Source: Paludibacter sp.
Lineage (GTDB): Bacteria > Bacteroidota > Bacteroidia > Bacteroidales > Paludibacteraceae
Reading direction: 5' to 3'
Length of the DNA stretch: 57,041 nt
Assembly (NCBI GenBank): GCA_017882285.1
Contig: JADGPS010000010.1
Coordinates: forward strand, 1-57,041
Under the pieces are notes generated by a model. It worked only from the letters and a program-made list of their open reading frames with translations. It did no database searches and was not told where the DNA came from. Shown here piece after piece: positions 4,312-51,811 of the stretch (position 1 is its first letter; every line of letters starts with the position of its first letter). A program made the translations under genes and the position numbers.

Positions 4312-4424
4312 GCCCCCCAACCCCCTAAAGGGGACTTTAAGAGTGGAGCAAAGATGTTTATGTCCAATTATTAAGTTACTTATAATGTTGCAACATCAAA
4401 AGCCCCCTTTAGGGGGTTGGGGGC
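4312..4424. repeat. Paired palindromic element 1 (CCCCTAAAGGGG family)
   Basis: Left arm at 4312-4343 and right arm at 4402-4424 are inverted copies, each holding an internal CCCCTAAAGGGG-like hairpin plus an outer CCCC tract. The spacer of about 58 nt is AT-rich and not shared with other copies. It lies between lepB and the WbqC-family gene and extends into the latter's reading frame. Confidence 0.85.
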
Positions 4425-5032
4425 AGGTTTGTTTGACTTTGGCCTATTTAGCTCCAGTGGAATATTATTCAGCGATAGCAAAAGCTGAAACTGTTTTTCT
4501 GGAATATTGCGAATATTACGTCAAGCAAACGTACCGAAATCGATGTCATATTGCGGCGGCAAACGGTCCAATGGCTCTAAGTATTCCGGTGGAAAAGACT
4601 GGTGGAGAGAGGATTTTGATCCGCGATGTGCGAATCTCAAAACATAAAGACTGGCAACAGCATCATTGGCGTTCCATCGAATCGGCTTATAACTCAACAC
4701 CATTTTTTGAATATTACAAAGATGATTTTCATCCGTTTTATGAAAAAAAATGGACTTTTCTGTGGGATTTTAATTTAGAAATTCAGGCAAAAGTACTCGA
4801 ATTACTGGATGTAGAACCCAACATTCAATTGACGACTGAATTTAAAACAACGTTGATAGAAAATATACTGGATTTGCGCGATAGCATTCATCCAAAAAAG
4901 GAAAATCAACCAGAAAACTGTAAACCGTATTATCAGGTTTTTGAACAACGATTTGGGTTTCAACCGAATTTAAGTATTATCGATTTGCTTTTTAATATGG
5001 GAAACGAAGCTAAATTAATCATAAGCCCCTAA
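4385..5032 (+). CDS. WbqC-family protein with repeat-derived N terminus
   Basis: 215 aa from the only nearby in-frame ATG (4385). The family-like part starts at LAYLAPVEYYSAIAKAE and continues through YVKQTYRNRCHIAAANGP, HHWRSIESAYNSTPFFEYY and FYEKKWTFLWDFN, all WbqC-like. WbqC proteins occur near surface-polysaccharide genes; their enzymatic role is uncertain. From the ATG, residues 6-14 (KPPLGGWGQ) are simply translation of the right arm of the paired palindrome, which homologues should not have. A TTG at 4433 would give MTLAYLAP, closer to a normal family N terminus (199 aa), so the start is uncertain. The stop codon TAA (5030-5032) lies inside the left arm of the next element. Confidence 0.8.
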   Translation: MLQHQKPPLGGWGQVCLTLAYLAPVEYYSAIAKAETVFLEYCEYYVKQTYRNRCHIAAANGPMALSIPVEKTGGERILIRDVRISKHKDWQQHHWRSIESAYNSTPFFEYYKDDFHPFYEKKWTFLWDFNLEIQAKVLELLDVEPNIQLTTEFKTTLIENILDLRDSIHPKKENQPENCKPYYQVFEQRFGFQPNLSIIDLLFNMGNEAKLIISP

Positions 5033-5135
5033 ATCCCCTAAAGGGGACTTTAAGAGGTTGCATATAAAAAAGATATAAAGTTAGAAATTAATTATAGATA
5101 TATTTAAAGTCCCCCTTTAGGGGGATTAAGGGGGC
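5025..5135. repeat. Paired palindromic element 2
   Basis: Left arm 5025-5057 and right arm 5103-5135 are inverted relative to each other, each with a CCCCTAAAGGGG-type core and a TTTAAAGTCC-like inner flank. The left arm supplies the TAA stop of the WbqC-family gene. The right arm ends 5 nt before the ilvE ATG. Confidence 0.85.
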
Positions 5136-5140
5136 AAATA

Positions 5141-6160
5141 ATGAAAAATATAGATTGGGGAAATTTAGGATTCGGTTATATGAAGACCGATTTCAATATC
5201 CGTTGCGAATTTAACAATAGTACTTGGGGAGAGCTAGAAGTTCATGAAAGTGAGTATTTGAATTTACACATGGCCGCCACGAGTCTTCATTATGGTCAGG
5301 AATCGTTTGAAGGATTGAAAGCTTTTCGTGGAAAAGATGGGAAAATCCGTATTTTTCGAATGAAGGACAATGCGTTGCGCATGCAGGATTCGAGCGAAGG
5401 GACGATGATGGCAAAGGTTCCTGTTGAGATTTTTGAAGAAGCTGTGCTCAAAGCTGTAAAACTCAACGAACGTTTCGTTCCGCCTTACGAATCTGGTGCT
5501 TCGTTGTATATTCGTCCGCTTTTAATTGGTAGCGGTCCGCAAGTTGGAGTAAAACCTGCAACAGAATATTTGTTTGTAGTTTTCGTTACTCCGGTTGGTC
5601 CGTATTTCAAAGGCGGTTTCCAAACCACACCGTTTGTGATAATGCGTGAATACGACCGCTCAGCACCGCTCGGCATGGGAAAATATAAAGTTGGTGGAAA
5701 TTATGCAGCCAGTTTGGTTGCAGGCCAAAAAGCACACGAATTGGGCTATTCTGCTGTGTTTTATCTTGATGCCAAAGAAAAAAAATATATTGATGAATGT
5801 GGTGCCGCAAACTTTTTCGGAATAAAAGATAATACCTATATCACACCAAAATCATCGTCCATTTTGCCATCAATTACCAACAAAAGTCTGATGGTTCTGG
5901 CAGAAGAACTGGGACTTAAAGTTGAACGACGTGCTATACCGGTGGAAGAACTTGCTACATTTGAAGAAGCAGGAGCTTGCGGAACTGCTGCAGTTATAAG
6001 CCCGATAGAACGTATTGACGATTACGATGAAAAGAAATCTTACATATTCTCTAACGATGGAAAACCAGGTCCCTTTTGTGATAAATTATATCATAAACTA
6101 CGTGGAATCCAATACGGTGATGAACCTGATACACACGGTTGGGTAACTGTAATTGAGTGA
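5141..6160 (+). CDS. ilvE: Branched-chain amino acid aminotransferase
   Basis: 339 aa fold-type IV PLP enzyme transferring amino groups between glutamate and the keto acids of Leu, Ile and Val. LHYGQESFEGLKAFRG near residues 45-60 is the conserved substrate-side segment. GKYKVGGNYAASL (about 178-190) contains the PLP-binding lysine. DECGAANFFGI and EEAGACGTAAVISPI are conserved phosphate- and substrate-binding loops. The length and C terminus match the longer class (about 340-360 aa), as in Bacteroidetes. It is flanked on both sides by paired palindromic elements. Confidence 0.95.
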   Translation: MKNIDWGNLGFGYMKTDFNIRCEFNNSTWGELEVHESEYLNLHMAATSLHYGQESFEGLKAFRGKDGKIRIFRMKDNALRMQDSSEGTMMAKVPVEIFEEAVLKAVKLNERFVPPYESGASLYIRPLLIGSGPQVGVKPATEYLFVVFVTPVGPYFKGGFQTTPFVIMREYDRSAPLGMGKYKVGGNYAASLVAGQKAHELGYSAVFYLDAKEKKYIDECGAANFFGIKDNTYITPKSSSILPSITNKSLMVLAEELGLKVERRAIPVEELATFEEAGACGTAAVISPIERIDDYDEKKSYIFSNDGKPGPFCDKLYHKLRGIQYGDEPDTHGWVTVIE

Positions 6161-6254
6161 GGCCCCTAACCCTGCCTGCCGCAGGCAAGCCCTAAAGGGG
6201 AATTTTTCTGAATAGTATAACAAACAACAAGTCCCCTTTAGGGGATTTAGGGGC
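6161..6254. repeat. Paired palindromic element 3 with nested second palindrome
   Basis: The left arm (6161-6206) begins immediately after the ilvE stop; the right arm is 6231-6254. The left arm is interrupted by a 19-bp sequence, CCTGCCTGCCGCAGGCAAG (6171-6189), which is itself nearly palindromic and recurs exactly at 28692-28710. Without it the arm would be the ordinary CCCCTAACCCCTAAAGGGG type. The rimM ATG follows 8 nt later. Confidence 0.8.
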
Positions 6255-6262
6255 ACTACAAT

Positions 6263-6781
6263 ATGATTTCAAAAACCGATGTTTTTCCTATTGGACAAAT
6301 TGTCAAGCCACACGGTATAAATGGTGAAATGTCATTTTCGTTTACTACCGATATTTTCGATAGGGAAGAGGTGCCGTATTTTATTTTTGAAATGCAAGGA
6401 ATTTTAGTACCGTTTTTTTTGGAAGAATATCGCTTCAAAGGCAATAACACTGGGCTTTTGAAGTTGGATGGTGTAATAAATGATGAACAAACTCGTGAAT
6501 TTGCTGGATTGACTATTTATCTGCCTAAAACGTATCTGGAAAAAGTGGAAGATGCTGAAATTGAGCTGGATTATTTTGCCGGTTTTAGTCTTGTAGATGC
6601 AGAAAAAGGCTTTTTAGGGATAATTTCGGAAGTGGATCAAACGACTGACAATGTACTTTTTGTAATTCCAACCAAAAATGATGAATTACTGATTCCGGCA
6701 GGTGAAGAATATATCGAAGAAATTGACCACGAAAAGAAAATTATTTATGTAAGATTGCCGGAAGGGTTGTTGGATTTATAG
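6263..6781 (+). CDS. rimM: Ribosome maturation factor RimM
   Basis: 172 aa, the normal size. RimM binds ribosomal protein S19 and assists assembly of the 30S subunit head. The N-terminal part shows the RimM domain signature VFPIGQIVKPHGINGEMSFS (residues 6-25). The second half, with LLIPAGEEYIEEIDHEKKIIYVRLPEGLLDL, is the PRC-barrel-like domain with the characteristic IP(A/F)xxxxI-x-x-ID pattern and terminal LPEGLLDL. The usual trmD/rplS neighbours are not present here. Confidence 0.94.
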   Translation: MISKTDVFPIGQIVKPHGINGEMSFSFTTDIFDREEVPYFIFEMQGILVPFFLEEYRFKGNNTGLLKLDGVINDEQTREFAGLTIYLPKTYLEKVEDAEIELDYFAGFSLVDAEKGFLGIISEVDQTTDNVLFVIPTKNDELLIPAGEEYIEEIDHEKKIIYVRLPEGLLDL

Positions 6782-6814
6782 GTTGTTTTATTAACAATTT
6801 ACTATCAATTGCTT

Positions 6815-7261
6815 TCATCCCCAATCCTCTAGCGGTTTATAAAATTCCCTGTAAGTCAAGTCGTTTGAGTAAAAGTTGAGGCGATCGAGCATATCGGCTG
6901 AGGTTTTGAAACCGTAAGCTAAAATAGCTGTTACGCCTGTTTCGCGACAAATTCTTTCAAATTCGTAGTATAGTTTAACACCGATAGTTTTGTTTTGAAA
7001 TTCCTTTTTTACTGCGCAAAACCAAATCATAATAGCCCCACTCACCATTTTTTCACCACTAATAAACCCTTTTATCTGTCCTTCGGTTTCGTACACCAAA
7101 GTCAGACAGCGTTTGTTCAGCACCAGTTGTTCTATCCACGAACGGTCATACGGAACTTCATCGTTGTATTTGAAGGGTTCCATGTCCAGGATGTTGTGAA
7201 TTGCATCAATATCTTCTGCTAGTGCTTTTCTGACGGGTTGTAAAGATTTATTGTCGCTCAT
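6815..7261 (-). CDS. GNAT-family acetyltransferase
   Basis: 148 aa single GNAT domain. RKALAEDIDAIHNIL at the N terminus, the central beta-strand pair TLVYETEGQIKGFISGEKM, and the acetyl-CoA-binding stretch KKEFQNKTIGVKLYYEFE (a degenerate form of the Q/RxxGxG/A loop) support the family. The later segment TAILAYGFKTSADMLDRLNFY fits the usual strand-helix ending. The substrate cannot be read from sequence. It lies 12 nt downstream of the acyltransferase gene on the same strand and is probably co-transcribed with it. Confidence 0.8.
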   Translation of the reverse strand: MSDNKSLQPVRKALAEDIDAIHNILDMEPFKYNDEVPYDRSWIEQLVLNKRCLTLVYETEGQIKGFISGEKMVSGAIMIWFCAVKKEFQNKTIGVKLYYEFERICRETGVTAILAYGFKTSADMLDRLNFYSNDLTYREFYKPLEDWG

Positions 7262-7273
7262 TTTATTGATTGA

Positions 7274-8092
7274 TTATTCCATCGAATATACGATATCTTT
7301 TACCCATTCCGCCCATTCAAGTGGTGTTTTCGATTTATCGAAAGTTTCCCATGGAATAGGTTTACCAATGCGTATAGTGAAATGTTTTCCTCTTTGTTTG
7401 TATAATTCATCTACCAGATACATCATTTCGATATTGAATTTTATTTTAAAAAACTTGCGAAGATTAGCCAAATTATAAAAGAAATTTGAGTTCCGACCTT
7501 CGAAATAAATAGGGACAATATCGCGTTGAAATTCAATAGATTTAGAAATAAAATTCTTTTTCCATTCCAAATCGAATATCTCCCCTTTTATTTTTCTCGA
7601 ACATATTCCTGCCGGATAAGTAAGTAGATGATTATCGGATTCATATAGTTTCTGCATCATTTTAGCATGTCCTTTGCTTTGCGAGCCCACTTTATTAACC
7701 GGAATAAACATTTCGCGTAACGGTTCAAGATTCATTAATATATCATTTGAAAAAAAACGAATTTTTCCATCGTATTCATTTCCAAGCAAATAACCCGTTG
7801 CAATACCATCTAATCCACCCAACGGATGATTACCTGCAAAAATATATTTCCCGTCTTTTGGAGGTAAATTTTCTTTTCCTTCAATATCGATAGTGACCTG
7901 AAAGTATTTAAGACCAGCTTCAATAAATTCCAGATTTTTCTTCCCGGGATTTTGGATAAAAAAATCATTTAAGTCTTTTTCATGAACAATTTTACGTAAG
8001 TAATTGACAATAAACCCCGGGACCTTTGTGTTCGGTGCTTTACTTTTCAATACGTTTGCAATATCAATCCTGAATGTTTTGTCTTTACTCAT
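7274..8092 (-). CDS. Lysophospholipid-type acyltransferase
   Basis: 272 aa from the ATG at 8090-8092; an upstream TTG at 8117-8119 is rejected because it sits in a good -7 box. The acyltransferase signature NHPLGGLDGI (NHx4D) lies about a third of the way in. It is followed by RFFSNDIL, FIPVNKVGSQSKG and a YPAGICSRKIKG segment that resembles the FPEG motif region of PlsC-like enzymes. The IVPIYFEGRNSNFFYNLANLRKFF segment is typical of Bacteroidetes hemolysin-type acyltransferases, which may act in ornithine- or glycine-lipid synthesis. Substrate not determined. Confidence 0.8.
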   Translation of the reverse strand: MSKDKTFRIDIANVLKSKAPNTKVPGFIVNYLRKIVHEKDLNDFFIQNPGKKNLEFIEAGLKYFQVTIDIEGKENLPPKDGKYIFAGNHPLGGLDGIATGYLLGNEYDGKIRFFSNDILMNLEPLREMFIPVNKVGSQSKGHAKMMQKLYESDNHLLTYPAGICSRKIKGEIFDLEWKKNFISKSIEFQRDIVPIYFEGRNSNFFYNLANLRKFFKIKFNIEMMYLVDELYKQRGKHFTIRIGKPIPWETFDKSKTPLEWAEWVKDIVYSME

Positions 8093-8116
8093 GCTCTTAT
8101 GTTTTTCTGTCTTGTG

Positions 8117-8124
8117 CAAATGTA
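8117..8124 (-). promoter_or_regulatory. -7 box of the acyltransferase/GNAT unit
   Basis: Minus-strand TACATTTG matches TAnnTTTG. No well-spaced TTTG was found upstream. Transcription would begin near 8110, which supports the ATG at 8092. Confidence 0.5.
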
Positions 8125-8313
8125 CGAAAAAGGTTTAAATTCCTAATGCCAAACCAATAAATATGAATTTTAATCGATTATTTCGGTTTAGAATATTTCG
8201 ATAACTTCGTAATATATTCCCCACTTTTCTTATTATTTTAATTTTTTTTATTTAGTAAAATTTTAAATAACTTTATATCAGCAATTTAATATAATTAGGA
8301 TGACAGAAATTGA

Positions 8314-8346
8314 TGTTGAAAACCTGTTGAAAACTTGTTTAAAATG
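8314..8346 (+). repeat. Three tandem 11-bp DnaA-box-like repeats
   Basis: TGTTGAAAACC (8314-8324), TGTTGAAAACT (8325-8335) and TGTTTAAAATG (8336-8346) are contiguous, so the boxes are about one helical turn apart. TGTTGAAAA differs at two positions from the DnaA-box complement TGTGGATAA. A further TGTTGATAA (8369-8377) differs at one. Whether DnaA binds here is unknown. Confidence 0.6.
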
Positions 8347-8384
8347 ATTGTTTTTAATGGCAATAAATTGTTGATAAATTTTTT

Positions 8385-8404
8385 GTGGGGAATAGTGGGG
8401 AATA
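8385..8404 (+). promoter_or_regulatory. MraZ-box-like operator upstream of mraZ
   Basis: Two tandem copies of GTGGGGAATA give TGGGG-N5-TGGGG (8386-8390 and 8396-8400), the spacing described for MraZ operators (TGGGN repeats separated by 5 nt). A weak -7 TACTTTTA lies at 8419-8426, so the repeats would overlap the -33 region and allow autorepression. The same 10-mer occurs inverted at 8215-8224. Confidence 0.7.
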
Positions 8405-8453
8405 TAAAATTAATTTCATACTTTTACCGTGTCAAAATTGAACTCAATTTATT

Positions 8454-8909
8454 ATGTCAACATTTATAGGTAAATACGAAGCAAAAACTGATATAAAGGG
8501 AAGAATTTTTATTCCTTCCGCTTATCGTAAATTGTTGTCTGAAGCTGAAAGAGAAAGAGTTGTTATGCGAAAGGATGCTGAAAATGATTGTTTGATTATT
8601 TTCCCGGAGCATGTTTGGAATGAAAAAGTGGAAGATTTTAAATCGAAATTGGACGAATGGAATCCAACAGACCAACTTTTGTTAATGCAATTTGTTTCGG
8701 ATGCCGAATGGTTGGATATTGATTCTCAGGGTCGTGTATTGATTTCGAAGAAAAATCTGCAGACAATTAACGTTGAAAATGCTGAAGTTTTATTTGTGGG
8801 AATGCTTGATCGGTTTGCGGTATGGAGCAAAACCCATTATGAACAAGCAAAGTTATCGACAGCTGATTTTGCAGCTTTATTGAAAGAGCGGATGATTAAG
8901 AAACAGTGA
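8454..8909 (+). CDS. mraZ: Transcriptional regulator MraZ
   Basis: 151 aa, the usual size, with two SpoVT/AbrB-like domains. The first, MSTFIGKYEAKTDIKGRIFIPSAYRK in the opening 30 residues, and the second, EWLDIDSQGRVLISKKNL (about residues 83-100), each show the family D-x-(K/Q)GR-(I/V) turn. MraZ forms a ring-shaped oligomer and represses the dcw operon that it heads. Here it is first in the cluster and preceded by TGGGG repeats. Its TGA stop lies within a CAGTGAACAGTTATCAG intergenic repeat (8904-8920) that recurs upstream of the MscS gene. Confidence 0.95.
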   Translation: MSTFIGKYEAKTDIKGRIFIPSAYRKLLSEAERERVVMRKDAENDCLIIFPEHVWNEKVEDFKSKLDEWNPTDQLLLMQFVSDAEWLDIDSQGRVLISKKNLQTINVENAEVLFVGMLDRFAVWSKTHYEQAKLSTADFAALLKERMIKKQ

Positions 8910-8937
8910 ACAGTTATCAGTTTAAAAATATAAATAA

Positions 8938-9852
8938 ATGACTGAACGAATTTACCATATTCCTGCATTATTAAATGAAACCATTGACGGATTGAATATT
9001 AAATCGGATGGCGTTTACGTGGATGTGACTTTTGGTGGTGGCGGTCATTCAAGGGAAATTTTGAAAAGATTAGGTAAGAATGGGAAGTTGTTTGGATTTG
9101 ATCAGGATGAAGATGCGCTTAAAAATGTAATTGATGATGAACGATTTATATTTGTAAGAAGCAATTTCAAGTATTTAAAAAATTTTCTTCGTTACCATAA
9201 TATAGAAAAAGTAGATGGCATTTTGGCTGATTTAGGCGTTTCGTCTCACCATTTTGATGAAGCTGAGCGTGGTTTCTCCTTTCGGTTTGACGGAGAATTG
9301 GATATGCGAATGAACACACAATCCCCTCTAACAGCAGCAGTTTTACTAAACAACTATTCCGAAGAAAAACTGGCTGATGTGTTTTATTTATACGGAGAAT
9401 TGCATAACTCCCGAAAAATTGCCAAAACAATTGTAAATGCCCGAGGGAAAGAGCCGTTTAAAAGAATTTTACCATTTATTGAAATACTGAAACCCTTTTT
9501 TGGACGCGAAAAGGAAAAGAAAGATATGGCCAGAGTTTTTCAGGCATTGCGGATTGAAGTAAATAAGGAAATGGATGTATTGAAATCGCTGCTGGAGCAA
9601 AGTCTGGAAGTATTGAACCCTGAAGGACGCTTGGTAGTTTTAACTTATCATTCACTCGAAGACAGGTTGGTGAAAAATTTTGTTCGCAGCGGTAATTTTG
9701 AAGGAAAAATAGAAAAAGACTTTTATGGAAACGTTCTTTCTCCTTTGAAAGGAATTAATAATAAGGTGATTATAGCCGATGATGCTGAAATAGAACGTAA
9801 TCCACGTGCACGAAGTGCAAAATTGAGAATTGCCGAAAAAAGAGTTAGTTAA
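8938..9852 (+). CDS. rsmH: 16S rRNA (cytosine-1402-N4)-methyltransferase
   Basis: 304 aa. RsmH (MraW) methylates N4 of C1402 in the 16S rRNA P-site using S-adenosylmethionine. YHIPALLNETIDGL at the N terminus, the SAM-binding VYVDVTFGGGGHSREIL (about residues 27-43), ADLGVSSHHFDEAERGFSFR and DMRMN motif, and the C-terminal VVLTYHSLEDRLVKNF and NPRARSAKLRIAEK are family hallmarks. It follows mraZ as the second gene of the dcw cluster. Confidence 0.96.
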   Translation: MTERIYHIPALLNETIDGLNIKSDGVYVDVTFGGGGHSREILKRLGKNGKLFGFDQDEDALKNVIDDERFIFVRSNFKYLKNFLRYHNIEKVDGILADLGVSSHHFDEAERGFSFRFDGELDMRMNTQSPLTAAVLLNNYSEEKLADVFYLYGELHNSRKIAKTIVNARGKEPFKRILPFIEILKPFFGREKEKKDMARVFQALRIEVNKEMDVLKSLLEQSLEVLNPEGRLVVLTYHSLEDRLVKNFVRSGNFEGKIEKDFYGNVLSPLKGINNKVIIADDAEIERNPRARSAKLRIAEKRVS

Positions 9853-9897
9853 TTTGTTAATCGGTTGATTCGTTAAATCGATAATTGTAAATAAAAG

Positions 9898-10287
9898 ATG
9901 TCTTGGTTTAAGAAAATAACAGATGCCATTCGTGGAAGCGAAGATTTCTCGGACATTAAGTCGAGCAAACTTCGTGATGTTCTGAATGGTAATATCCTGA
10001 CTAAAAAATTTTTCCAGAAACAATACGGCCTGTTGATAATGATAGCAGTTTTGACATTTTTTTACGTGGATAACCGGTATTATTGTGAAACACAATTGGC
10101 AAAAGAAATAGAAATGGAAAAGAAAATTCAGGATGCAAAATATGAATCATTGACTATATCAGCCGAATTAATGCAAATCAGCCGGCAATCCAATGTATTT
10201 AAAATGGTGAATGATAGTGGATTAAATTTGATTGAAACAATTTCACCTCCAATTGTAATAGAAGACAGCATTCCAAAAAATAAATGA
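9898..10287 (+). CDS. ftsL: FtsL-like cell division protein
   Basis: 129 aa small bitopic membrane protein: a cytoplasmic N terminus of about 42 residues, one transmembrane segment at about 43-57, and a periplasmic coiled-coil-prone region (LAKEIEMEKKIQDAKYESLTI). The sequence itself is weakly conserved, so the call rests mainly on size, topology and position between rsmH and the division PBP. FtsL pairs with FtsB to recruit and activate the FtsW/PBP septal synthase. The last 4 nt overlap the start of the next gene (ATGA), indicating translational coupling. Confidence 0.85.
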   Translation: MSWFKKITDAIRGSEDFSDIKSSKLRDVLNGNILTKKFFQKQYGLLIMIAVLTFFYVDNRYYCETQLAKEIEMEKKIQDAKYESLTISAELMQISRQSNVFKMVNDSGLNLIETISPPIVIEDSIPKNK

Positions 10288-12419: not shown

Positions 12420-12452
12420 ATCAATTTGTTACGAAAATATAAATTGACGAAT

Positions 12453-13898: not shown

Positions 13899-13967
13899 AT
13901 AGTTAATTAGTTGATTAGTTAATTTGTTCGACAGAATTGTAAATTTATAAATTGTAAATAAAAAAAT

Positions 13968-15233: not shown

Positions 15234-15235
15234 GA

Positions 15236-19047: not shown

Positions 19048-19055
19048 TTAATTTC

Positions 19056-28691: not shown

Positions 28692-28710
28692 CCTGCCTGC
28701 CGCAGGCAAG
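28692..28710. repeat. 19-bp palindrome copy (CCTGCCTGCCGCAGGCAAG)
   Basis: Identical to 6171-6189, where it sits inside a paired palindromic element. The core TGCCTGC-C-GCAGGCA is a perfect 7-bp inverted repeat around one base. Confidence 0.8.
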
Positions 28711-32063: not shown

Positions 32064-32097
32064 GCCCCCTAAATCCCCCATTGGGGGACTTAAAGAG
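32064..32097. repeat. Half palindromic element (variant core) next to a terminator
   Basis: GCCCCCTAAATCCCCC followed by ATTGGGGGACTTAAAGAG resembles the left arm of the paired elements, but with ATT in place of TAAA in the hairpin loop. No right arm follows; instead the terminator hairpin begins within its 3' end. Confidence 0.7.
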
Positions 32098-39801: not shown

Positions 39802-39802
39802 G

Positions 39803-39810
39803 TACTTTTG
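39803..39810 (+). promoter_or_regulatory. -7 box of the Sua5/YciO-like gene
   Basis: TACTTTTG matches the consensus. The -33 region would fall in the tpiA terminator stem and has no TTTG at the right spacing. Confidence 0.5.
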
Positions 39811-39861
39811 TGTGGACAAAATATAAAGAATTACAATCAACTTATTCTCCAATCAACCAAA

Positions 39862-40467: not shown

Positions 40468-40538
40468 GTTGTCTGTTAAAGAAATCCCACGCTGATTTTT
40501 TTCTGCTTTTATCTGCTCAATCTGAGGAAAGTTAGCAC

Positions 40539-41594: not shown

Positions 41595-41597
41595 AAA

Positions 41598-41630
41598 TTC
41601 AGTTATCAGTGAACAGTTATCAGTGAACAG
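41598..41630. repeat. Tandem 14-bp intergenic repeat (CAGTTATCAGTGAA)
   Basis: Two copies at 41600-41613 and 41614-41627. The 20-mer TTCAGTTATCAGTGAACAGT (41598-41617) recurs inverted at 45659-45678 in front of topB, and CAGTGAACAGTTATCAG recurs at the mraZ stop (8904-8920). Confidence 0.8.
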
Positions 41631-41633
41631 TTG

Positions 41634-43532: not shown

Positions 43533-43536
43533 ATTG

Positions 43537-43622
43537 ACCCCCAACCCCTAAAGGGGAGTTAAATTAGTATTATTTTTTTTTAGTCAGAAAGATGTCTTCA
43601 AGCCCCTTTAGGGGTTTGGGGC
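43537..43622. repeat. Paired palindromic element 4
   Basis: Left arm 43537-43560 and right arm 43601-43622, inverted, each with the CCCCTAAAGGGG-type core. It lies between the DUF2721 gene and nadE. The right arm is translated as the C-terminal residues of the DUF2721 protein. Confidence 0.85.
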
Positions 43623-44026
43623 ACATTATCTTTTATTTTTTCCATATCACTCAGATAAATTTCGAGGGACTTGGCAGAAATCTGAATTTCCCAGACTGAA
43701 AGGGCAAGTGAAATGATTAATAATACCAAAGCCAGCCCAAAAATATAAGCCGAAATCACTTGTAATCCAACATAAATCAAAAACATGGTGGCTACACAAA
43801 GAAGCAAACTGCCAACGCCTAACATCTGCATGTTTTTGGTCAGATAAAGTCGTTTGCGGAGATTCATAATTTGAGCATGTGTCAACGCTGAACGGTCTTC
43901 CATATATCTATCTTTCAGTGTGCGCACCAATTGAGCATACGATAAAAACCTGTTTGTATAAGCCAGTAACAACAGCGATATGGCCGAAAACAAAAAGGTT
44001 GGCGTAATGAGTGTTAGTTCTTGCAT
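43598..44026 (-). CDS. DUF2721 family membrane protein, C terminus formed by a repeat
   Basis: 142 aa from the ATG at 44024-44026 (an upstream in-frame start would precede the family start). Three hydrophobic segments: LITPTFLFSAISLLLLAYTNRFLSY, GVGSLLLCVATMFLIYVGL and FGLALVLLIISLALSVWEI. The hydrophilic loop LVRTLKDRYMEDR and the terminal EIQISAKSLEIYLSDMEKIK are typical of DUF2721, a family of unknown function. The last residues (VPQTPKGA) and the stop codon are encoded by the arm of a paired palindromic element, so the native C terminus was probably replaced or extended. Confidence 0.85.
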   Translation of the reverse strand: MQELTLITPTFLFSAISLLLLAYTNRFLSYAQLVRTLKDRYMEDRSALTHAQIMNLRKRLYLTKNMQMLGVGSLLLCVATMFLIYVGLQVISAYIFGLALVLLIISLALSVWEIQISAKSLEIYLSDMEKIKDNVPQTPKGA

Positions 44027-44090
44027 CTTTATACGAATTAATAACGAATTATACGAATTTCTTATGACCAAATCAACAAATTAACTTTTT

Positions 44091-45308: not shown

Positions 45309-45377
45309 GTAAATAAATTATTCCGTTTTATAACTACTCTCTTTAAACGCTCAAACCTATACGTTTGTTTCTGACTG

Positions 45378-45385
45378 CAAAGATA
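45378..45385 (-). promoter_or_regulatory. -7 box of the flavodiiron protein operon
   Basis: Minus-strand TATCTTTG, a perfect TAnnTTTG. No well-spaced TTTG found. Leader of about 60 nt. Confidence 0.55.
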
Positions 45386-45506
45386 AAATAATTTTAGCAA
45401 TCCATGAAGTTTATTGTGTAATCGTTTAACTGTTTAACTGTTAAACAGTTGAAAAGTCAAACCCGAAATTTGAATTTGAAACAAAGAACCTTTGAAAGTT
45501 TTTCTT

Positions 45507-45514
45507 TACTTTTG
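45507..45514 (+). promoter_or_regulatory. -7 box upstream of topB
   Basis: TACTTTTG matches the consensus. Transcription would start near 45521, giving an unusually long leader of about 160 nt that holds the three CATAAAGTTT repeats. Confidence 0.5.
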
Positions 45515-45681
45515 CATGAAGAATTGATAGTCTTCTTAGTGCATAAAGTTTTTAAAGTACATAAAGTTTGAAAGTACATAAAGTTTAGATTCTTAACTTT
45601 ATAAATTCTCTATTTAATAGCTTTTTACTTTATAAACTTTCAAACGTTTTCACTCATTACTGTTCACTGATAACTGAAAAT

Positions 45682-47628
45682 ATGATAGTTTGCATTGCCG
45701 AAAAGCCCAGTGTGGCGCGTGATATTGCTGAAGTTTTGGGCGCTAAAACCCGGAAAGACGGCTATATCGAAGGAAACGGATATCAGGTAACCTGGACTTT
45801 CGGCCATCTTTGTGGATTGCTCGAACCACATGAATATGCGCCGGAATGGAAAGCATGGGCGTTGAGCCACCTGCCAATGATTCCAGAGCGATTTGGAATA
45901 AAAGTAATGAACGACAGCGGAATACAAAAGCAATTCCATATTATTGAAACGTTGATGGCTAATGCAGATGAAGTAGTGAATTGCGGTGATGCCGGCCAGG
46001 AAGGAGAATTGATTCAGCGTTGGGTAATGCAAAAAGCTTTGTGTAAATGTCCGGTGAAACGGTTGTGGATTTCTTCACTAACCGAAGAAGCCATACGAGA
46101 AGGATTTACAAAACTTAAAGACCAAAAAGAATTTCAATCGCTTTACGAAGCGGGACTTTCGCGCGCCATTGGCGACTGGTTGTTGGGAATGAATGCCACA
46201 CGTCTTTACACGTTGAAATACGGCAAAAACCGTCAGGTTCTTTCCATCGGACGCGTTCAAACACCAACCTTGGCATTGATTGTAAACCGTCAGTTGGAAA
46301 TTGAACACTTCAAACCGGAAGCGTATTGGGAATTGAAAACCATTTATCGCGATACTGTTTTTTCAGCTTCCAAAGGTCGTTTTTCGAGTGTGGAAGAAGG
46401 AACAAATTTTCTGGAAACGGTAAAGAATGCCGATTTCTTTGTCACCGATATTTCCACCAAAAAAGGAACGGAATCTGCGCCACGACTGTTCGATTTAACT
46501 TCACTGCAGGTGGAATGCAATAAAAAATACGGTTATTCGGCCGACGAAACACTGAAAATTATTCAAAGTCTGTACGAAAAGAAAATAACGACCTATCCAC
46601 GCGTCGATACCACGTATCTGACTGATGATTTGTATCCGAAAATTCCCGAAATTCTGAAAGGAATAAAAGATTACGAGCTACTCACTAAACCTTTGTTGGC
46701 TGGTAAATTGCCAAAAACAAAAAAAGTTTTTGATAATACGAAAGTCACCGATCATCATGCTATCATTCCTACCGGTGTGCATCCAACCGCTTTGACCGAT
46801 CCTGAAAAAAAGGTTTTTGATATGGTAGCACGTCGGTTTATTGCCAACTTTTATCCTGAATGTAAAATTTCAACGACCACGGTGTTGGGTGAAGTGGAAA
46901 AAGTGGAATTCAAGGTGAACGGGAAACAAATTCTCGATCCGGGATGGCGCATTGTTTTCGAAAAAGGAGAAGATAAAGGAACAGGCGAAGGCACAGATAA
47001 AAGCGAAGGATCAGATACTGAAGAAAGCACATTGCCGATATTCGTAAAAGGAGAAAGTGGTACACACGAACCAACTTTAGCCGAGAAATGGACTTCGCCA
47101 CCTAAACCATATACCGAAGCTACGTTACTGCGTGCGATGGAAACTGCCGGAAAACTGGTGGATGATGACGAATTGCGGGATGCGCTGAAAGAAAATGGTA
47201 TCGGACGACCATCAACCCGTGCTGCCATTATAGAAACACTTTTCAAACGCGATTATATCCGTAGAGAAAAGAAAAATCTTATTGCGATGAATACCGGTGT
47301 GGAATTGATACAGATTATTCAGGAAGATTTGTTGAAATCAGCCGAACTGACCGGCCGTTGGGAAAAAAAACTCCGACAAGTAGAACGTGGTGAATATCAG
47401 GCAAAAGATTTTTTGGATGAACTGAAAGCGATGGTGACGCAAATTGTTTTTAACGTGAAGAGCGACAATAGAAGAACCACCCCAACCCCTCTCTCTGAAG
47501 AAAGGGGAACTGAGAGTTACGTTGGAAAAATTTGTCCGGTTTGTGGAAAAGGAATCCTTTTGAAAGGCAATTCGGCTTATGGTTGCAGCGAATGGAAAAA
47601 TGGATGCAGTTACAGATTACCATTTTGA
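45682..47628 (+). CDS. topB: DNA topoisomerase III with in-frame repeat insertion
   Basis: 648 aa type IA topoisomerase. The Toprim domain begins MIVCIAEKPSVARDIAEVLGAK, with the acidic motif GDAGQEGELIQRW; Gly in place of the second Asp is common in TopB proteins. The catalytic tyrosine is in KKITTYPRVDTTYLTDDLY (about residues 306-312). ENGIGRPSTRAAIIETLFKRDY is conserved. A C-terminal single zinc-ribbon-like half (ICPVCGKGILLKGNSAYGCSEWKNGC) ends the protein. Just before it, residues about 599-612 (TTPTPLSEERGTES) are translation of a CCCC-type repeat (47478-47515) inserted in frame. It decatenates DNA and resolves recombination intermediates. Confidence 0.95.
   Translation: MIVCIAEKPSVARDIAEVLGAKTRKDGYIEGNGYQVTWTFGHLCGLLEPHEYAPEWKAWALSHLPMIPERFGIKVMNDSGIQKQFHIIETLMANADEVVNCGDAGQEGELIQRWVMQKALCKCPVKRLWISSLTEEAIREGFTKLKDQKEFQSLYEAGLSRAIGDWLLGMNATRLYTLKYGKNRQVLSIGRVQTPTLALIVNRQLEIEHFKPEAYWELKTIYRDTVFSASKGRFSSVEEGTNFLETVKNADFFVTDISTKKGTESAPRLFDLTSLQVECNKKYGYSADETLKIIQSLYEKKITTYPRVDTTYLTDDLYPKIPEILKGIKDYELLTKPLLAGKLPKTKKVFDNTKVTDHHAIIPTGVHPTALTDPEKKVFDMVARRFIANFYPECKISTTTVLGEVEKVEFKVNGKQILDPGWRIVFEKGEDKGTGEGTDKSEGSDTEESTLPIFVKGESGTHEPTLAEKWTSPPKPYTEATLLRAMETAGKLVDDDELRDALKENGIGRPSTRAAIIETLFKRDYIRREKKNLIAMNTGVELIQIIQEDLLKSAELTGRWEKKLRQVERGEYQAKDFLDELKAMVTQIVFNVKSDNRRTTPTPLSEERGTESYVGKICPVCGKGILLKGNSAYGCSEWKNGCSYRLPF
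47478..47515 (+). repeat. CCCC-type repeat relic inside topB
   Basis: CCCCAACCCCTCTCTCTGAA followed by GAAAGGGGAAC keeps the outer CCCCAACCCC and inner AGGGGAAC of the intergenic elements, with a longer loop. It is in frame and adds about 14 residues between the catalytic core and the zinc-ribbon. Confidence 0.7.
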
Positions 47629-47691
47629 TAAAAACTTATTTTTATATTTAACTGCCAATTGTCAACTATTAATTGTCAACTGAATTTTATG

Positions 47692-47699
47692 TATCTTTG
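47692..47699 (+). promoter_or_regulatory. -7 box of the M16 peptidase unit
   Basis: TATCTTTG matches the consensus; -33 element unclear. The ATG at 47728 follows a 22-nt predicted leader. Confidence 0.55.
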
Positions 47700-47727
47700 C
47701 GCTTCGTTTTTTTTTGAAAGATAACTA

Positions 47728-48948
47728 ATGACATATCAAACATATACTCTCTCCAACGGACTTCGAATCATTCATAAACCCGATCAATCGCCAGTGGCTT
47801 ATTGCGGAATGGTGATAAATACCGGTTCGCGCGATGAAGCTGAAAATGAACAGGGAATGGCGCATTTTATTGAGCACATGTTGTTTAAAGGCACCGAAAA
47901 ACGTCGTTCGGGTCATATTATCAATCGGTTAGAAAATGTGGGCGGTGAGTTGAACGCATATACTTCGAAAGAAGAAACGGTGGTGTATGCCGGCGTATTG
48001 AAGGAATATTTTGAGCGGGCAATGGAACTGGTTTCGGATATCGTTCTTCATTCCAATTTTCCACAAAAAGAGATTGAAAAGGAAGTTGTTATTATTCTTG
48101 ATGAAATTCAATCGTACAATGACAGTCCTTCGGAATTGATTTTTGATGATTTTGAAGAGTTACTTTTTGATAATCACCCGATTGGACATAATATTTTGGG
48201 GAAATCGGAATTGTTAGAGAAATACAGTACCGACGATGCCTTCCGTTTTGTAAAAAAACAGTATCGACCAGAAGAAATGGTGTTTTTCGCGTTGGGCGAT
48301 TTGGATTTCAAGCAATTGGTACGTTGGGCCGAAAAATATTTGAAAACTGAAAATAGAGAACCAAAAACAAGAATGCGAGTTTCGCCAACTTATTATCAAC
48401 CAAATAAAAAAGAGATTAATAAGAATACGCATCAGGTTCATTTTATGATGGGTAACCGAGCGTACGATTTGTACCATCCGAACCGGATGGGAATGTATTT
48501 ATTGAATAATATTCTCGGCGGGCCGGGAATGAACAGTTTGTTGAATTTATCATTGCGCGAAAAACACGGATTGGTTTACAATGTGGAATCGAGTTATCAG
48601 CCGTTTGTCGATACCGGCATGTGGAGTGTTTATTTCGGTTGTGATCCGGAGAATGTGAATCGTTGTGAGCAATTGGTTTACAATGAATTGCAAAAACTTC
48701 GCGAACAATTATTGCCTGAAAATGCATTGAAAAAATATAAATTGCAGTTGGTTGGTCAAATGGCTATTTCGTCCGAACACAAAGAAAATCTAGCGTTGAG
48801 TTTGGGAAAAAGTTTTCTCCATTACGGGAAAATTGATGATTTGGAAACTGTAAAACAAATGATTGAAGCTGTTACAGCTGAACAATTACAGCAAATTGCA
48901 AACGAAATTTTTAATCCGAAAGAACTTTCTGTATTGAAGTACGTTTAG
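47728..48948 (+). CDS. M16-family zinc peptidase (processing-peptidase type)
   Basis: 406 aa. The inverted zinc motif HFIEH is at residues 46-50 in GMAHFIEHMLFKGT, and the distal Glu is in EIEKEVVIILDEI (about 112-124). The second, non-catalytic domain includes the R/Y region around GMNSLLNLSLREKHGLVYNVESSYQPF. It is the approximately 400-aa single-unit type related to mitochondrial processing peptidase beta and PqqL-like enzymes. No signal peptide is visible, so it is probably cytoplasmic. It is followed 2 nt later by the O-methyltransferase gene, so they are co-transcribed. Confidence 0.93.
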   Translation: MTYQTYTLSNGLRIIHKPDQSPVAYCGMVINTGSRDEAENEQGMAHFIEHMLFKGTEKRRSGHIINRLENVGGELNAYTSKEETVVYAGVLKEYFERAMELVSDIVLHSNFPQKEIEKEVVIILDEIQSYNDSPSELIFDDFEELLFDNHPIGHNILGKSELLEKYSTDDAFRFVKKQYRPEEMVFFALGDLDFKQLVRWAEKYLKTENREPKTRMRVSPTYYQPNKKEINKNTHQVHFMMGNRAYDLYHPNRMGMYLLNNILGGPGMNSLLNLSLREKHGLVYNVESSYQPFVDTGMWSVYFGCDPENVNRCEQLVYNELQKLREQLLPENALKKYKLQLVGQMAISSEHKENLALSLGKSFLHYGKIDDLETVKQMIEAVTAEQLQQIANEIFNPKELSVLKYV

Positions 48949-48950
48949 AC

Positions 48951-49577
48951 ATGAATATTGAAGAATATATATTATTACATTCGGATGCAGAACCTGAATA
49001 TCTTGCAAAAGTAAACCGAGCAACGCATTTGAAGTTGATTAATCCCCGCATGTGTTCCGGTCATTTGCAAGGAAGGGTTTTGAGCATGTTTTGCCATATG
49101 ATTAAGCCAAAACGCGTGTTGGAATTGGGAACTTTAACAGGATACTCAGCGTTATGTATGGCCGAAGCTTTACCGGAAGATGCTGTTTTGCACACTATTG
49201 AATGTGATGAAGAACTGGAGGATTTTATACTTCAAAATTTTGCCGGTTCGGATCACGGATACAAAATAAAACTTCATATTGGCGATGCACTGACTGAGAT
49301 TAAAAAGTTGGATGAAATTTTCGATTTGGTTTTTATTGATGCCGATAAACGTGAATATCTGGCTTATTATGAGGCTATTTTGCCAAAGCTGATTGCGGGT
49401 GGATTTATTCTTGCCGATAACACTTTGTGGGATGGAAAAGTGCTGAAAGCGGTCGATTCAAATGATAAACAAACCATTGAAATAATGAAGTTTAATGACT
49501 TTGTGGCAAAAGATTCGCGTGTTGAAAAAGTGATGTTACCGTTGCGGGATGGATTGACGATAATCAGAAAAAGATGA
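48951..49577 (+). CDS. SAM-dependent O-methyltransferase (COMT-like)
   Basis: 208 aa. The class I Rossmann methyltransferase of the catechol-O-methyltransferase type (methyltransferase family 3) is indicated by RVLELGTLTGYSALCMAEALP (SAM motif I), LHTIECDEELEDF, the DLVFIDADKREYLAYYE metal/active-site segment, and GGFILADNTLWDGKVL. The physiological substrate is unknown. Its start is 2 nt after the M16 peptidase stop. The TGA stop (49575-49577) overlaps the first bases of a paired palindromic element. Confidence 0.92.
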   Translation: MNIEEYILLHSDAEPEYLAKVNRATHLKLINPRMCSGHLQGRVLSMFCHMIKPKRVLELGTLTGYSALCMAEALPEDAVLHTIECDEELEDFILQNFAGSDHGYKIKLHIGDALTEIKKLDEIFDLVFIDADKREYLAYYEAILPKLIAGGFILADNTLWDGKVLKAVDSNDKQTIEIMKFNDFVAKDSRVEKVMLPLRDGLTIIRKR

Positions 49578-49663
49578 CCCCTAACCCCTAAAGGGGAACT
49601 GGATTAGATTCTTTAAAAATTTTAAATAAGAGTAACTTAAACTCCCCTTTAGGGGTTGGGGGC
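49576..49663. repeat. Paired palindromic element 5
   Basis: Left arm 49576-49600 and right arm 49641-49663, inverted, with CCCCTAAAGGGG-type cores. The left arm overlaps the methyltransferase stop codon; the right arm ends 4 nt before the thioesterase ATG. Confidence 0.85.
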
Positions 49664-49667
49664 ATAT

Positions 49668-50078
49668 ATGTATATTTTCGAATTAGAATTAAAAGTACGC
49701 GATTACGAGTGTGATATACAAGGAATTGTAAATAATTCGGTGTATCAGAATTATTTGGAACATACTCGTCACGAGTTTTTGGAGGAAAACAATATCAGCT
49801 TTGCCGAATTGCACGATAGAGGTATCGATGCTATGGTTTCAAGCATTGAAATTGCGTATAAAACTCCTTTGCGTCCCGGCGATAATTTTATTTCAAAACT
49901 GTATGTTACAAAAGAAGGTGTTCGGTACATTTTTCATCAGGTAATATGTCGTAAGTCCGATAACAAACTGGTTATTAAAGCTAAAGTGCATGCAGTAGTA
50001 GTGATTAATGGAAAACTGGCGAGTTCACTTCCTGAGTTTGATGATCTTGTTATTCGCAGTCAGGCAAAATATGAATAA
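49668..50078 (+). CDS. Hotdog-fold acyl-CoA thioesterase (YbgC/4HBT-like)
   Basis: 136 aa from the ATG at 49668; an in-frame TTG at 49656 lies within the repeat arm and is rejected. LKVRDYECDIQGIVNNSVYQNYLEHTRHEFL is the 4HBT-type motif with the catalytic Asp in the CDIQGIVNN turn. The remainder (SIEIAYKTPLRPGDNFISKLYV, VVVINGKLASSLPEF) fits the hotdog strand order. The family hydrolyses acyl-CoAs; substrate not predictable. Transcribed with the SufT-like gene and lpxH. Confidence 0.88.
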   Translation: MYIFELELKVRDYECDIQGIVNNSVYQNYLEHTRHEFLEENNISFAELHDRGIDAMVSSIEIAYKTPLRPGDNFISKLYVTKEGVRYIFHQVICRKSDNKLVIKAKVHAVVVINGKLASSLPEFDDLVIRSQAKYE

Positions 50079-50139
50079 ACTATTTTACCATTTTGCTTGT
50101 TTATCAATTTTGAAACTGTTGACTGCTAACTGAAACAAC

Positions 50140-50454
50140 ATGAACGAATTTTTAGAAATAGAAGAAAAAATAGTTCGAATGCTCAAAACGGTGTTCGACC
50201 CGGAAATTCCGATAAATATATACGATTTGGGATTGATTTATAAAATCGATCTGGCTGAGGATGGTCAACTTACCTTGGATATGACGTTGACTGCCCCAAA
50301 TTGTCCTGCAGTTGATTTTATTGTGGAAGATGTCCGTATGAAAGTAGGCAGTGTTGAAGGAGTGAAAAACGTTGATGTAAACATTGTGTTTGAGCCTGCC
50401 TGGGATAAAAATATGATGAGTGAAGAAGCGCAACTGGAACTGGGTTTCCTTTAA
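50140..50454 (+). CDS. SufT/MIP18-family (DUF59) iron-sulfur assembly factor
   Basis: 104 aa. KTVFDPEIPINIYDLGLIYKID and DMTLTAPNCPAVDFIVEDV are the signature of DUF59 proteins, with the conserved cysteine in APNCP. These act in maturation of Fe-S proteins or delivery of clusters. sufE and sufS lie about 0.8 kb downstream on the opposite strand, so the region groups Fe-S genes even though they are not one operon. The C terminus FEPAWDKNMMSEEAQLELGFL is typical of the family. Confidence 0.92.
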   Translation: MNEFLEIEEKIVRMLKTVFDPEIPINIYDLGLIYKIDLAEDGQLTLDMTLTAPNCPAVDFIVEDVRMKVGSVEGVKNVDVNIVFEPAWDKNMMSEEAQLELGFL

Positions 50455-50470
50455 AAACTACCGACTTATT

Positions 50471-51205
50471 ATGATTTATTTTCTTTCCGATGCCCATTTG
50501 GGTTCACTGCTTGTAAAAGATCAACGTGCTCACGAGAAAAAGCTGGTTGATTGGCTCGACAACGTCAAAAAAGATGCAACAGCCATTTATCTGCTCGGTG
50601 ATATGTTTGACTTTTGGTTCGAGTATAAAACGGTTGTACCAAAGGGTTTTGTGCGTTTTCTCGGAAAACTGGCAGAACTGACTGATTCTGGCATTGAAAT
50701 TCATTTTTTTATTGGGAATCACGATATCTGGACGTTCGGTTACCTCGAAAATGAAATCGGTTTAATTATTCACAAAGAACCACTTACGGTTCAACTTGGA
50801 AATAAGAAATTTTTCATGGCTCACGGCGATGGTTTACATGTGGAGGAACGTGGTTTTGAATTGATTCGGAAAATCTTTCACAGTCGTACCGCACAGAAAT
50901 TATTCCGGTTGCTTCCTGCTCAGCTTGGACAAGAATTTGGTTACAACTGGTCAAAACGTAACCGTGAGAAGATACTTTCTATTGAAAACAAATACCTGGG
51001 AGAAGAAAAAGAAAAATTGGTGGTTTTTGCCAAAAAATATGTTGAAACACACGATGTCGATTTCCTGATTTTCGGTCATCGTCATCTTGCGCTCAATTTG
51101 CAATTGAAAAATCAAAAAAGATTGATTATTCTAGGCGATTTCGTCGGCATTTTCTCGTATGGAGTTTTTGATGGCGAGAATTTCAAGTTGGAATATGTGG
51201 AATAA
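50471..51205 (+). CDS. lpxH: UDP-2,3-diacylglucosamine diphosphatase
   Basis: 244 aa from the ATG at 50471; an in-frame upstream start (50420) would overlap the previous gene. LpxH hydrolyses UDP-2,3-diacylglucosamine to lipid X in lipid A synthesis at the inner membrane. The metallophosphoesterase motifs are complete: FLSDAHLGS, LLGDMFDFWFEYK, FIGNHDIW, MAHGDGLH and FGHRHLAL. Length and the interrupted helical cap (FHSRTAQKLFRLLPAQLG) fit the Bacteroidetes form. Gap of 16 nt after the SufT-like gene, so co-transcription is expected. Confidence 0.92.
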   Translation: MIYFLSDAHLGSLLVKDQRAHEKKLVDWLDNVKKDATAIYLLGDMFDFWFEYKTVVPKGFVRFLGKLAELTDSGIEIHFFIGNHDIWTFGYLENEIGLIIHKEPLTVQLGNKKFFMAHGDGLHVEERGFELIRKIFHSRTAQKLFRLLPAQLGQEFGYNWSKRNREKILSIENKYLGEEKEKLVVFAKKYVETHDVDFLIFGHRHLALNLQLKNQKRLIILGDFVGIFSYGVFDGENFKLEYVE

Positions 51206-51224
51206 TTCATAATTCAGTATTAGT

Positions 51225-51283
51225 GTTTACTGCTAACTGTTCCATGTTTATTGCTAACTGCTCCATGCTAACTGATCACTGAT
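51225..51283. repeat. Degenerate tandem 21-bp intergenic repeat
   Basis: GTTTACTGCTAACTGTTCCAT (51225-51245) is followed by GTTTATTGCTAACTGCTCCAT (51246-51266), then GCTAACTGATCACTGA. The third unit runs into the 3' end of sufE, supplying its last residues and stop. Confidence 0.7.
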
Positions 51284-51690
51284 TTATACGCCAAAGCAAA
51301 CATCTTCATTTGTTTCACCATAGCCACCAAACCGTTAGAACGGGTAGGAGAGAGATGTTCTTTTAAACCTATTTTGTCGATAAAATAAAGCTCGGTATTT
51401 AGAATTTCATCGGGTGTATGACCGGAAAGTACCCGAATCAATAACGAAACAATTCCCTTTACCAATACAGCATCGCTCTCACCCTGATAAGTGATAATTC
51501 CATCGTTTAGTTCTGCATTCAGCCACACCCGGCTCTGGCAGCCTTCAATAATATTCTGAGGATTTTTATATTTATCTTCAAGCGGTAAGAGTGAATTTCC
51601 CAAATCAATAAGCAAAGCATACTTATCCATCCAGTCATCAAACGCACTGAATTCTTCAATAATTTCGTCTTGTAATTCGTTGATAGTCAT
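51268..51690 (-). CDS. sufE: SufE-family sulfur acceptor
   Basis: 140 aa. SufE takes persulfide sulfur from the cysteine desulfurase SufS and passes it to the Fe-S scaffold. The catalytic cysteine is in IIEGCQSRVWLNAEL (about residues 47-61). LLIDLGNSLLPLEDKYKNPQNI precedes it, and the C-terminal GLKEHLSPTRSNGLVAMVKQMK is conserved. Encoded downstream of sufS on the same strand, with a paired palindromic element between them. Its last residues (SVIS) and the TAG stop lie in a degenerate intergenic repeat. Confidence 0.94.
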   Translation of the reverse strand: MTINELQDEIIEEFSAFDDWMDKYALLIDLGNSLLPLEDKYKNPQNIIEGCQSRVWLNAELNDGIITYQGESDAVLVKGIVSLLIRVLSGHTPDEILNTELYFIDKIGLKEHLSPTRSNGLVAMVKQMKMFALAYKSVIS

Positions 51691-51702
51691 ATTATATAAA
51701 TG

Positions 51703-51811
51703 TACCCCTAACCCCTAAAGGGGAAAAAGAGAAGTTAGTATTAATTGTTTATTTGTTTTAGAATATTACAGACGAATCTATTTTAATTCCCCTTTAGGGG
51801 TTAGGGGTCTA
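51703..51811. repeat. Paired palindromic element 6
   Basis: Left arm 51703-51725 and right arm 51785-51811, inverted, CCCCTAAAGGGG-type cores. The right arm overlaps the sufS TAG stop (51809-51811), and the element separates sufS from sufE. Confidence 0.85.

Follow-up and report, generated by a model that had tools for sequence, protein, structure and literature searches.

What are the paired palindromic elements that lie between the genes of a Paludibacter contig, and what moves them? The stretch in question, hereafter the window, comprises 57,041 nucleotides of Paludibacter sp. (GenBank assembly GCA_017882285.1, contig JADGPS010000010.1, positions 1 to 57,041), and a preliminary description of it recognised a family of elements built of two inverted arms around an AT-rich spacer, comparable to repetitive extragenic palindromic (REP) sequences and bacterial interspersed mosaic elements (BIMEs) or to miniature inverted-repeat transposable elements (MITEs). 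Bacterial genomes commonly contain short palindromic repeats, part of which is explained by the REP-associated tyrosine transposases (RAYTs). We propose, with a probability of about 0.62, that the window elements are non-autonomous derivatives, resembling MITEs and paired REP doublets (REPINs), of a longer palindromic element in which one arm, a DUF559 gene and an inverted arm follow one another. The argument is drawn from what can be read in the genomes themselves, namely the arms, the covariation within each arm, their association with DUF559 and their lineage-specific presence. From these we infer that the DUF559 protein is the mover of the elements, the alternative being that it is their cargo.

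Each arm consists of an outer C-run, a foot of 2-5 nt, an inner C-run, a loop, a G-run and a flank. The core of the arm, CCCCTAAAGGGG, occurs in 175 exact copies (88 on one strand and 87 on the other) in the 3.18 Mb genome, and the reversed control in none (0 + 0). Arms were parsed from the fetched stretches, which yielded 113 distinct arms with the loop TAAA or TGAA rather than all 175 cores, and these included 38 neighbouring inverted pairs with hairpins 25 to 147 bp apart. When open reading frames (ORFs) were called by a simple procedure in the same stretches, 61 of 75 elements or single arms fell between ORFs, three inside an ORF and 11 at the edge of a stretch, with median distances from element to ORF of 0 bp (3' end) and 8 bp (5' end). 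Tandem placement is not enriched, because tandem ORFs flank 53 of the 61 elements and make up a similar share of neighbouring ORF pairs there (135/162). The family is therefore one of inverted doublets, mainly intergenic and in high copy, as is characteristic of REPINs.

Four DUF559 domains are present in this genome (G000), on contigs C8, C135, C30 and C14. The first pointer to the domain came from other genomes, since clusters of elements surround a DUF559 gene in G040 and G073, whereas the cluster in G010 does not. On C8 the gene is bracketed by inverted arms with C4 runs in a unit of ~600 bp (G000:C8, about 9124-9726). On C135 the domain lies in frame within PurL, bracketed by inverted C4 arms that are translated along with it, and on C30 it lies in frame within leucyl-tRNA synthetase (LeuRS), where the arms are of a different class, CCTCACCC...CCTCTCC. 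At all three loci DUF559 is the sole ORF of at least 90 aa situated wholly between the arms. Searches against Pfam confirmed the domain (PF04480) and found it surrounded by LeuRS editing-domain and PurL-type domains, and the DUF559 profile matched PDB 3hrl (E 1.5e-30) and the mobile intron protein 3r3p (E 5.5e-6), which we take to be I-Bth0305I. Judged by these matches, DUF559 is a family of small Vsr-like PD-(D/E)XK nucleases related to a mobile-intron endonuclease, and its members here are predicted nucleases. The fourth domain, on C14 (L117:1456-1913), has on its two sides inverted repeats of a third type, GGGGACGAGCGAAGCGGAGGGGTT, with a length of 24 bp.

The longer unit has copies of its own. 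When the C8 element was compared with its five nearest, Paludibacter-type copies, nucleotide similarity to four of them covered the gene and an adjoining arm and ended near the outer arm ends (at about 1335 and 1942-1946 in L116); L148, the sole copy whose neighbours were read, lies among other genes than the C8 element. On these alignments the unit of arm, DUF559 and arm is evidently mobile, and the family thus combines terminal inverted repeats with a coding relative that has the same ends, as MITEs do. The LeuRS insert occupies the same site in seven genomes (L118, L124, L125, L134, L137, L141 and L274) and is absent in the three others read (L272, L273 and L275); in L274 its EVDG-H stretch is degraded. 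A related nuclease domain and a recurrent insertion at a site that is empty in relatives recall the homing cycle, in which an element inserts, decays and is lost, with one old insertion kept by descent as a possible alternative. DUF559 inserts were also found in HsdM (L126) and HsdR (L144), as named from their translations. An apparent second in-frame palindromic insert, short and reading PPAPSEGGGE...SPSPLGRAGERF, lies downstream of the DUF559 insert in the LeuRS of L118 (G000:C30).

The association of DUF559 with such arms extends well beyond this genome. An alignment scan for DUF559 in a named-genome sample gave 585 candidate loci, of which the best 80 were taken; 71 had usable flanks and nine were dropped. 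Inverted repeats scoring at least 14 within 350 bp accompanied 52 of the 71 loci, compared with 0 of 58 windows displaced 900 bp outward. Among 32 DUF559 loci from the same order as Paludibacter, 23 reached this score, 17 of them with C-tract arms. Two Picosynechococcus plasmids have arms built on this plan to either side of DUF559, as do, by eye, two Synechocystis plasmids. Paired hairpins on one side only (within 200 bp) were seen in three Azospirillum plasmids, one Sinorhizobium plasmid and two E. coli records, where the gene is ycjD, and the inverted-repeat score of these loci does not exceed 14. In four cyanobacterial plasmids (L253, L254, L255 and L256) DUF559 lies beside or near methyltransferase genes of the DUF1156/PglX type.

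The class of arm at the gene also goes with the class of repeat elsewhere in the genome. For this comparison 50 of the 80 loci were picked by arm class as judged by eye (short flanks affected nine of the 30 not picked); of these, 49 were searched, 26 and 19 entered the test, and four assigned to a third class (C3) stood outside it. The median number of cores was 13.5 in the 26 genomes with C4 arms at DUF559 and 0 in the 19 with CTCTCC-type arms (p 3e-4), and the pattern TCTCCN4-5GGAGA behaved conversely, with 6 and 16, respectively (p 0.002). When arm class, assigned by motif at a score of at least 13.5 (C4 or CT in 60 of the 90 rows), was mapped onto a phylogeny of 90 DUF559 proteins, it required 10 changes, as against 21-22 when the labels are shuffled, and none of 500 shuffles was as low.

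The six elements of the window and the single arm are as follows.

Element 1, 4313..4424, no strand assigned: left arm C6-AA-C5-TAAA-G4-ACTTT and an inverted right arm, between tandem ORFs, the upstream ORF ending at 4307.

Element 2, 5026..5135, no strand assigned: foot TAAAT and flank ACTTT; the upstream ORF ends at 5032, within the arm, and the next ORF starts at 5141.

Element 3, 6163..6254, no strand assigned: a nested 17-bp palindrome (6173-6189) splits the left arm; the right arm has the foot TAAAT (bottom strand).

Element 4, 43538..43622, no strand assigned: left arm with CAA foot and AG flank, right arm with AAA foot and CT flank (bottom strand); it overlaps the 3' end of ORF 43598-44071.

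Element 5, 49578..49663, no strand assigned: left arm with TAA foot and AA flank, right arm with CAA foot and AG flank (bottom strand).

Element 6, 51704..51808, no strand assigned: TAA foot and AA flank in both arms.

Single complete arm, 32064..32097, plus strand: CCCCC-TAAAT-CCCCC-ATT-GGGGG-ACTTA.

All six paired elements were found where the preliminary description had placed them, and a search for inverted repeats recovered one pair for each (4314-4423, 5026-5132, 6190-6243, 43538-43621, 49578-49662 and 51704-51808). Matches to the core with at most two mismatches numbered 24 over both strands of the window, compared with 1.75 expected and a maximum of 6 in 100 shuffles. What had been described as a half copy at 32064-32097 is instead one whole single arm. 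The claim that the elements lie precisely between genes holds in essence, except that several overlap gene ends; the spacers, said to differ each time, are mostly unalike, except that some pairs are similar beyond the null, at least 8 of 561 pairs exceeding the null maximum of 18 and the three highest scoring 30, 24 and 24. At gathering thresholds the only Rfam match in the window was a tRNA. The palindrome that interrupts the C-run in the left arm of element 3 reads TGCCTGCCGCAGGCAAG, and CCTGCCTGCCG, taken from it, is found again at 28692.

Comparison with relatives bears on whether these elements move. The nearest relative of its DUF559 places the window genome probably near Paludibacter, in the Bacteroidales. 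Core counts in the two congeners G168 and G200 are 111 and 116, and none of the other 58 relatives in the family set has more than 15. At orthologous junctions in G168 and G200 the window elements are absent in 11 of 11 testable cases (two per element, except element 4 with one, in G200 only). A possible arm remnant remains at the element 1 junction in G168, an unlike palindrome is present there at the element 3 junction, and element 6 is, by eye, missing also in the more distant G119, G120, G121, G122 and G134. The flanks compared are 72-87% identical, too diverged for base-level reading of the empty sites. Because the elements are lacking at these junctions although the congeners are rich in cores, we regard them, on this comparison, as mobile. 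A sister copy of element 6 on another contig (G000:C41:30524-30612) has a similar spacer and unlike flanks, and the similarity ends at the outer arm ends; together with the spacer similarity scores it indicates that the unit moves and the spacer then decays. No target-site duplication, one of the checks proposed at the outset, was visible between these two copies, the sole comparison that allows a look. Both the layout and the mobilisation suggested in the preliminary description are thus borne out by the copy number, the sister copy and the absence in congeners. The interval between yjdP and phnP (L258, L263-L268) is polymorphic among E. coli genomes, with full, shortened and absent alleles of a palindromic pair resembling the one next to ycjD; it was considered as an exact empty site and set aside, as the short alleles resemble deletions or are too diverged, and we claim no target duplication from it.

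The arms covary internally, as can be seen in the 111 that remain when those with no readable foot are left out. Outer run, inner run and G-run are of equal length in 99 of the 111 (permutation mean 55, maximum 72). The foot, which is the C-run plus TAA, CAA, TAAAT, AAA, AAG, TAG or a few others, is tied to the first two bases of the flank: TAA is joined with AA in 37/42 arms, TAAAT with AC in 14/15, CAA with AG in 14/16, AAA or AA with CT or AT in 13/14, and AAG with AT in 3/3. Foot and flank share 1.66 bits of mutual information, compared with no more than 0.74 in 2000 shuffles. Taken singly, flank bases 1 to 3 are coupled to the foot above all shuffles and bases from the fourth onward lie within them, and the base preceding the outer C-run is uncoupled from the flank (mutual information 0.00). 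For feet of 2-3 nt a simple rule emerges: in 80 of 91 arms the second base of the flank is the complement of the base that opens the foot (permutation mean 34, maximum 49). The same complementarity holds in 78 of 100 arms of other genomes (permutation mean 30, maximum 45), where the set consisted of 160 arms from 54 loci, array copies within a locus included. TAAAT falls outside this rule, yet is followed by AC in 38/38 arms from 23 loci elsewhere. On the Picosynechococcus plasmids, which are homologous and whose arms are not independent, TAAAT goes with AC in 9/9 arms with unlike loops, and other feet obey the rule in 13/14 by row count.

The compensatory change between arms that the preliminary description proposed to look for was not seen, as the feet of the two arms agree in 9 of 36 elements compared with 6.7 expected (p 0.18), and the strong coupling is that within each arm. 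Since left and right arms are independent, the unit that is read would be the single arm and not the pair. A subterminal GTTA[GC]T is found in 20 of the 113 arms (1.4 expected, maximum 5). Single arms fold weakly as DNA, four of them with z between -0.2 and -1.5 and a fifth with 0.02, and the two whole elements folded gave z -5.2 and -7.6. A G-quadruplex was set aside because, by inspection, each strand of an element has only three G-runs.

These features can be joined in a working model. An arm would become single-stranded or be extruded, the DUF559 nuclease would recognise its hairpin and outer C-run and would nick beside the junction of foot and flank, and the excised or copied unit would be joined at a new site by host repair, with no obvious target duplication. 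Short elements would retain only the part that the enzyme reads, the arms, while the middle drifts. Since the arms can be read through, an insertion would be tolerated at the boundary of abutting genes or, when in frame, within a gene. We tentatively extend this model further, at somewhat less than even odds: DUF559 nucleases may be the dedicated mobilisers of a bacteria-wide superfamily of paired hairpins, a second, RAYT-independent REP system in which the foot-flank code is read by the nuclease and the autonomous form can sit in frame in essential genes. Such a superfamily would span Bacteroidota, Cyanobacteriota, Pseudomonadota including E. coli ycjD, Chloroflexota and others.

Several observations weigh against the involvement of DUF559. 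At 19 of the 71 loci the inverted-repeat score stays under the threshold, and 40 of the 71 also score highly for direct repeats, probably because the arms come in arrays. Few branches of the DUF559 tree are resolved, so part of the arm-class signal may be taxonomy, and the PurL copy has C4 arms on a protein that groups with the CTCTCC/LeuRS copies. Within the order, where the DUF559 and Y1_Tnp searches covered genomes other than the congeners G168 and G200, DUF559 is found in 5 of 7 genomes with at least five cores and in 41 of 112 others (p 0.11), so its presence alone does not predict core number; no DUF559 match was obtained in G037 (24 cores) or G010 (7 cores). The copies read in G037 are nested in a larger inverted-repeat element, on which its cores may be hitch-hiking, an account that does not extend to G010. 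Lastly, a Y1_Tnp gene on contig C109 of this genome has a C4 pair just upstream.

An alternative that we consider unlikely is that DUF559 is a cargo or repair gene within a palindromic element that is moved by some other unknown or host activity, such as template switching at hairpins. The occurrence of arms in G037 and G010, which gave no DUF559 match, would fit this, as would the equal run lengths, given that host polymerases correct quasipalindromes. A further point in its favour is a Vsr-like DUF559 nuclease of Caulobacter that is reported to trigger the SOS response (PMC12907096). Against it stand the lack of any other ORF of at least 90 aa wholly between the arms at C8, PurL and LeuRS, the recurrence of DUF559 beside arms across phyla, and the agreement of arm class with the protein tree.

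Movement of the elements as REP or REPIN repeats by a RAYT of this genome, that is, by a Y1 HUH transposase, appears distinctly improbable. The paired inverted hairpins between genes are what this would predict, and the genome has five Y1_Tnp matches, one of them under the family cut-off, including the C109 gene; in the order, Y1_Tnp occurs in 7 of 7 genomes with at least five cores and in 75 of 112 others (p 0.10). The foot-flank coupling also resembles the pairing of guide and cleavage site in IS200/IS605 elements. However, the arms have no GTAG foot, and when a RAYT-type partner was sought, as the preliminary description had proposed, 18 of the 33 Y1_Tnp loci of the order with usable flanks had other inverted repeats scoring at least 14, and none of the 33 was flanked on both sides by C-tract arms in the motif test; the partner found was the DUF559 gene. 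A RAYT was therefore rejected as the partner. The C109 gene (L065:2643-4100, G000:C109) lies amid a different repeat, of GGAATTC type, with the C4 pair ~25 bp upstream of its listed start.

Selection of the elements as functional RNA or DNA signals at gene ends, such as terminators or hairpins that stabilise mRNA, is very improbable: they do abut gene ends, but they are conserved at 0 of 11 orthologous junctions, convergent ORFs flank only 3 of the 61, and the G-run is followed by AA, AG, AC or CT in place of a T-tract. An intrinsic terminator, which requires that T run after its hairpin, was rejected on the same ground. Chance palindromes, for which no supporting point was found, can be dismissed, given 175 cores against none in the reversed control and a window count far above the shuffles.

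How do the elements and their DUF559 partner compare with known systems? With REPINs and BIMEs served by RAYTs they share short paired inverted hairpins that are mostly intergenic, non-autonomous and in high copy, and the presence in the genome of a candidate enzyme whose gene has these repeats at its flanks. They differ in lacking a GT[AG]G foot, in a candidate enzyme that is a PD-(D/E)XK nuclease with DUF559 and not a Y1 HUH transposase, in the position of its gene inside the doublet, and in a foot made of a C-run and 2-5 nt that is coupled to the 3' flank. In IS200/IS605 elements a guide pairs with the cleavage site; the foot-flank coupling works alike and the enzyme class differs, so that we see a likeness and not membership. 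RAYT subclasses with GT[AG]G REPs are described in PMC6006769. The CGTC-tagged REPs of Di Nocera et al. 2013 (PMC3733652) are reported without a dedicated transposase and, like our elements, form hairpin dimers that are intergenic, sometimes intragenic, and found in Bacteroidetes among others. Those repeats have the tag CGTC (or TGTC/CCTC), a CCA tail and a stem of 8-9 bp, whereas the C4 arms have no tag and a stem of 4-5 C/G pairs.

MITEs share with our elements small size, inverted ends, high copy and a longer coding relative. Here, in contrast, the ends are self-folding hairpins, no target duplication was seen in the sole comparison, and the coding relative found carries the gene of a nuclease, no search having been aimed at DDE transposases. 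Vsr-like homing endonucleases, such as that of PDB 3r3p, are related by profile and resembled by the LeuRS insert, which seven genomes carry in frame at a common position, but the DUF559 units are flanked by palindromic arms, are dispersed at many unlike sites and have short derivatives; no intron or intein was seen at the DUF559 units. Rickettsia palindromic elements are palindromic inserts that are read in frame inside essential genes, a property shared by the DUF559 copies, which differ in carrying their own reading frame. They are also cited in PMC3733652. In Legionella pneumophila, segments with a transposase and DUF559 are reported to be hotspots of mutation and recombination (PMC12308824). 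A literature search, whose coverage left most subscription journals outside, found no paper tying DUF559 to palindromic repeats, and a search by motif strings had no bacterial repeat paper among the matches listed. With a testable nuclease partner, base coupling within the arm and in-frame inserts (LeuRS, PurL, and HsdM and HsdR by reading), the movement of these repeats would become accessible to experiment, and the same features would point to a role for DUF559, which is still of 'unknown function' in Pfam.

Two further observations concern nested and in-frame inserts of other kinds. A protein of 1336 aa encoded at L063:1939-5949 (G000:C10), which reads like a type IIG restriction-modification enzyme, has a Y1_Tnp domain embedded in frame and followed by a repetitive stretch, and would be another case of an in-frame mobile insert with a different enzyme class. 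In L102, L106, L108 and L109 (genomes G013 and G040, of two families of the order), elements of ~150 bp have terminal inverted repeats, AGTCTAAAAAGCC and a little more, that enclose C4 arms, and may represent a nested MITE that was perhaps horizontally moved.

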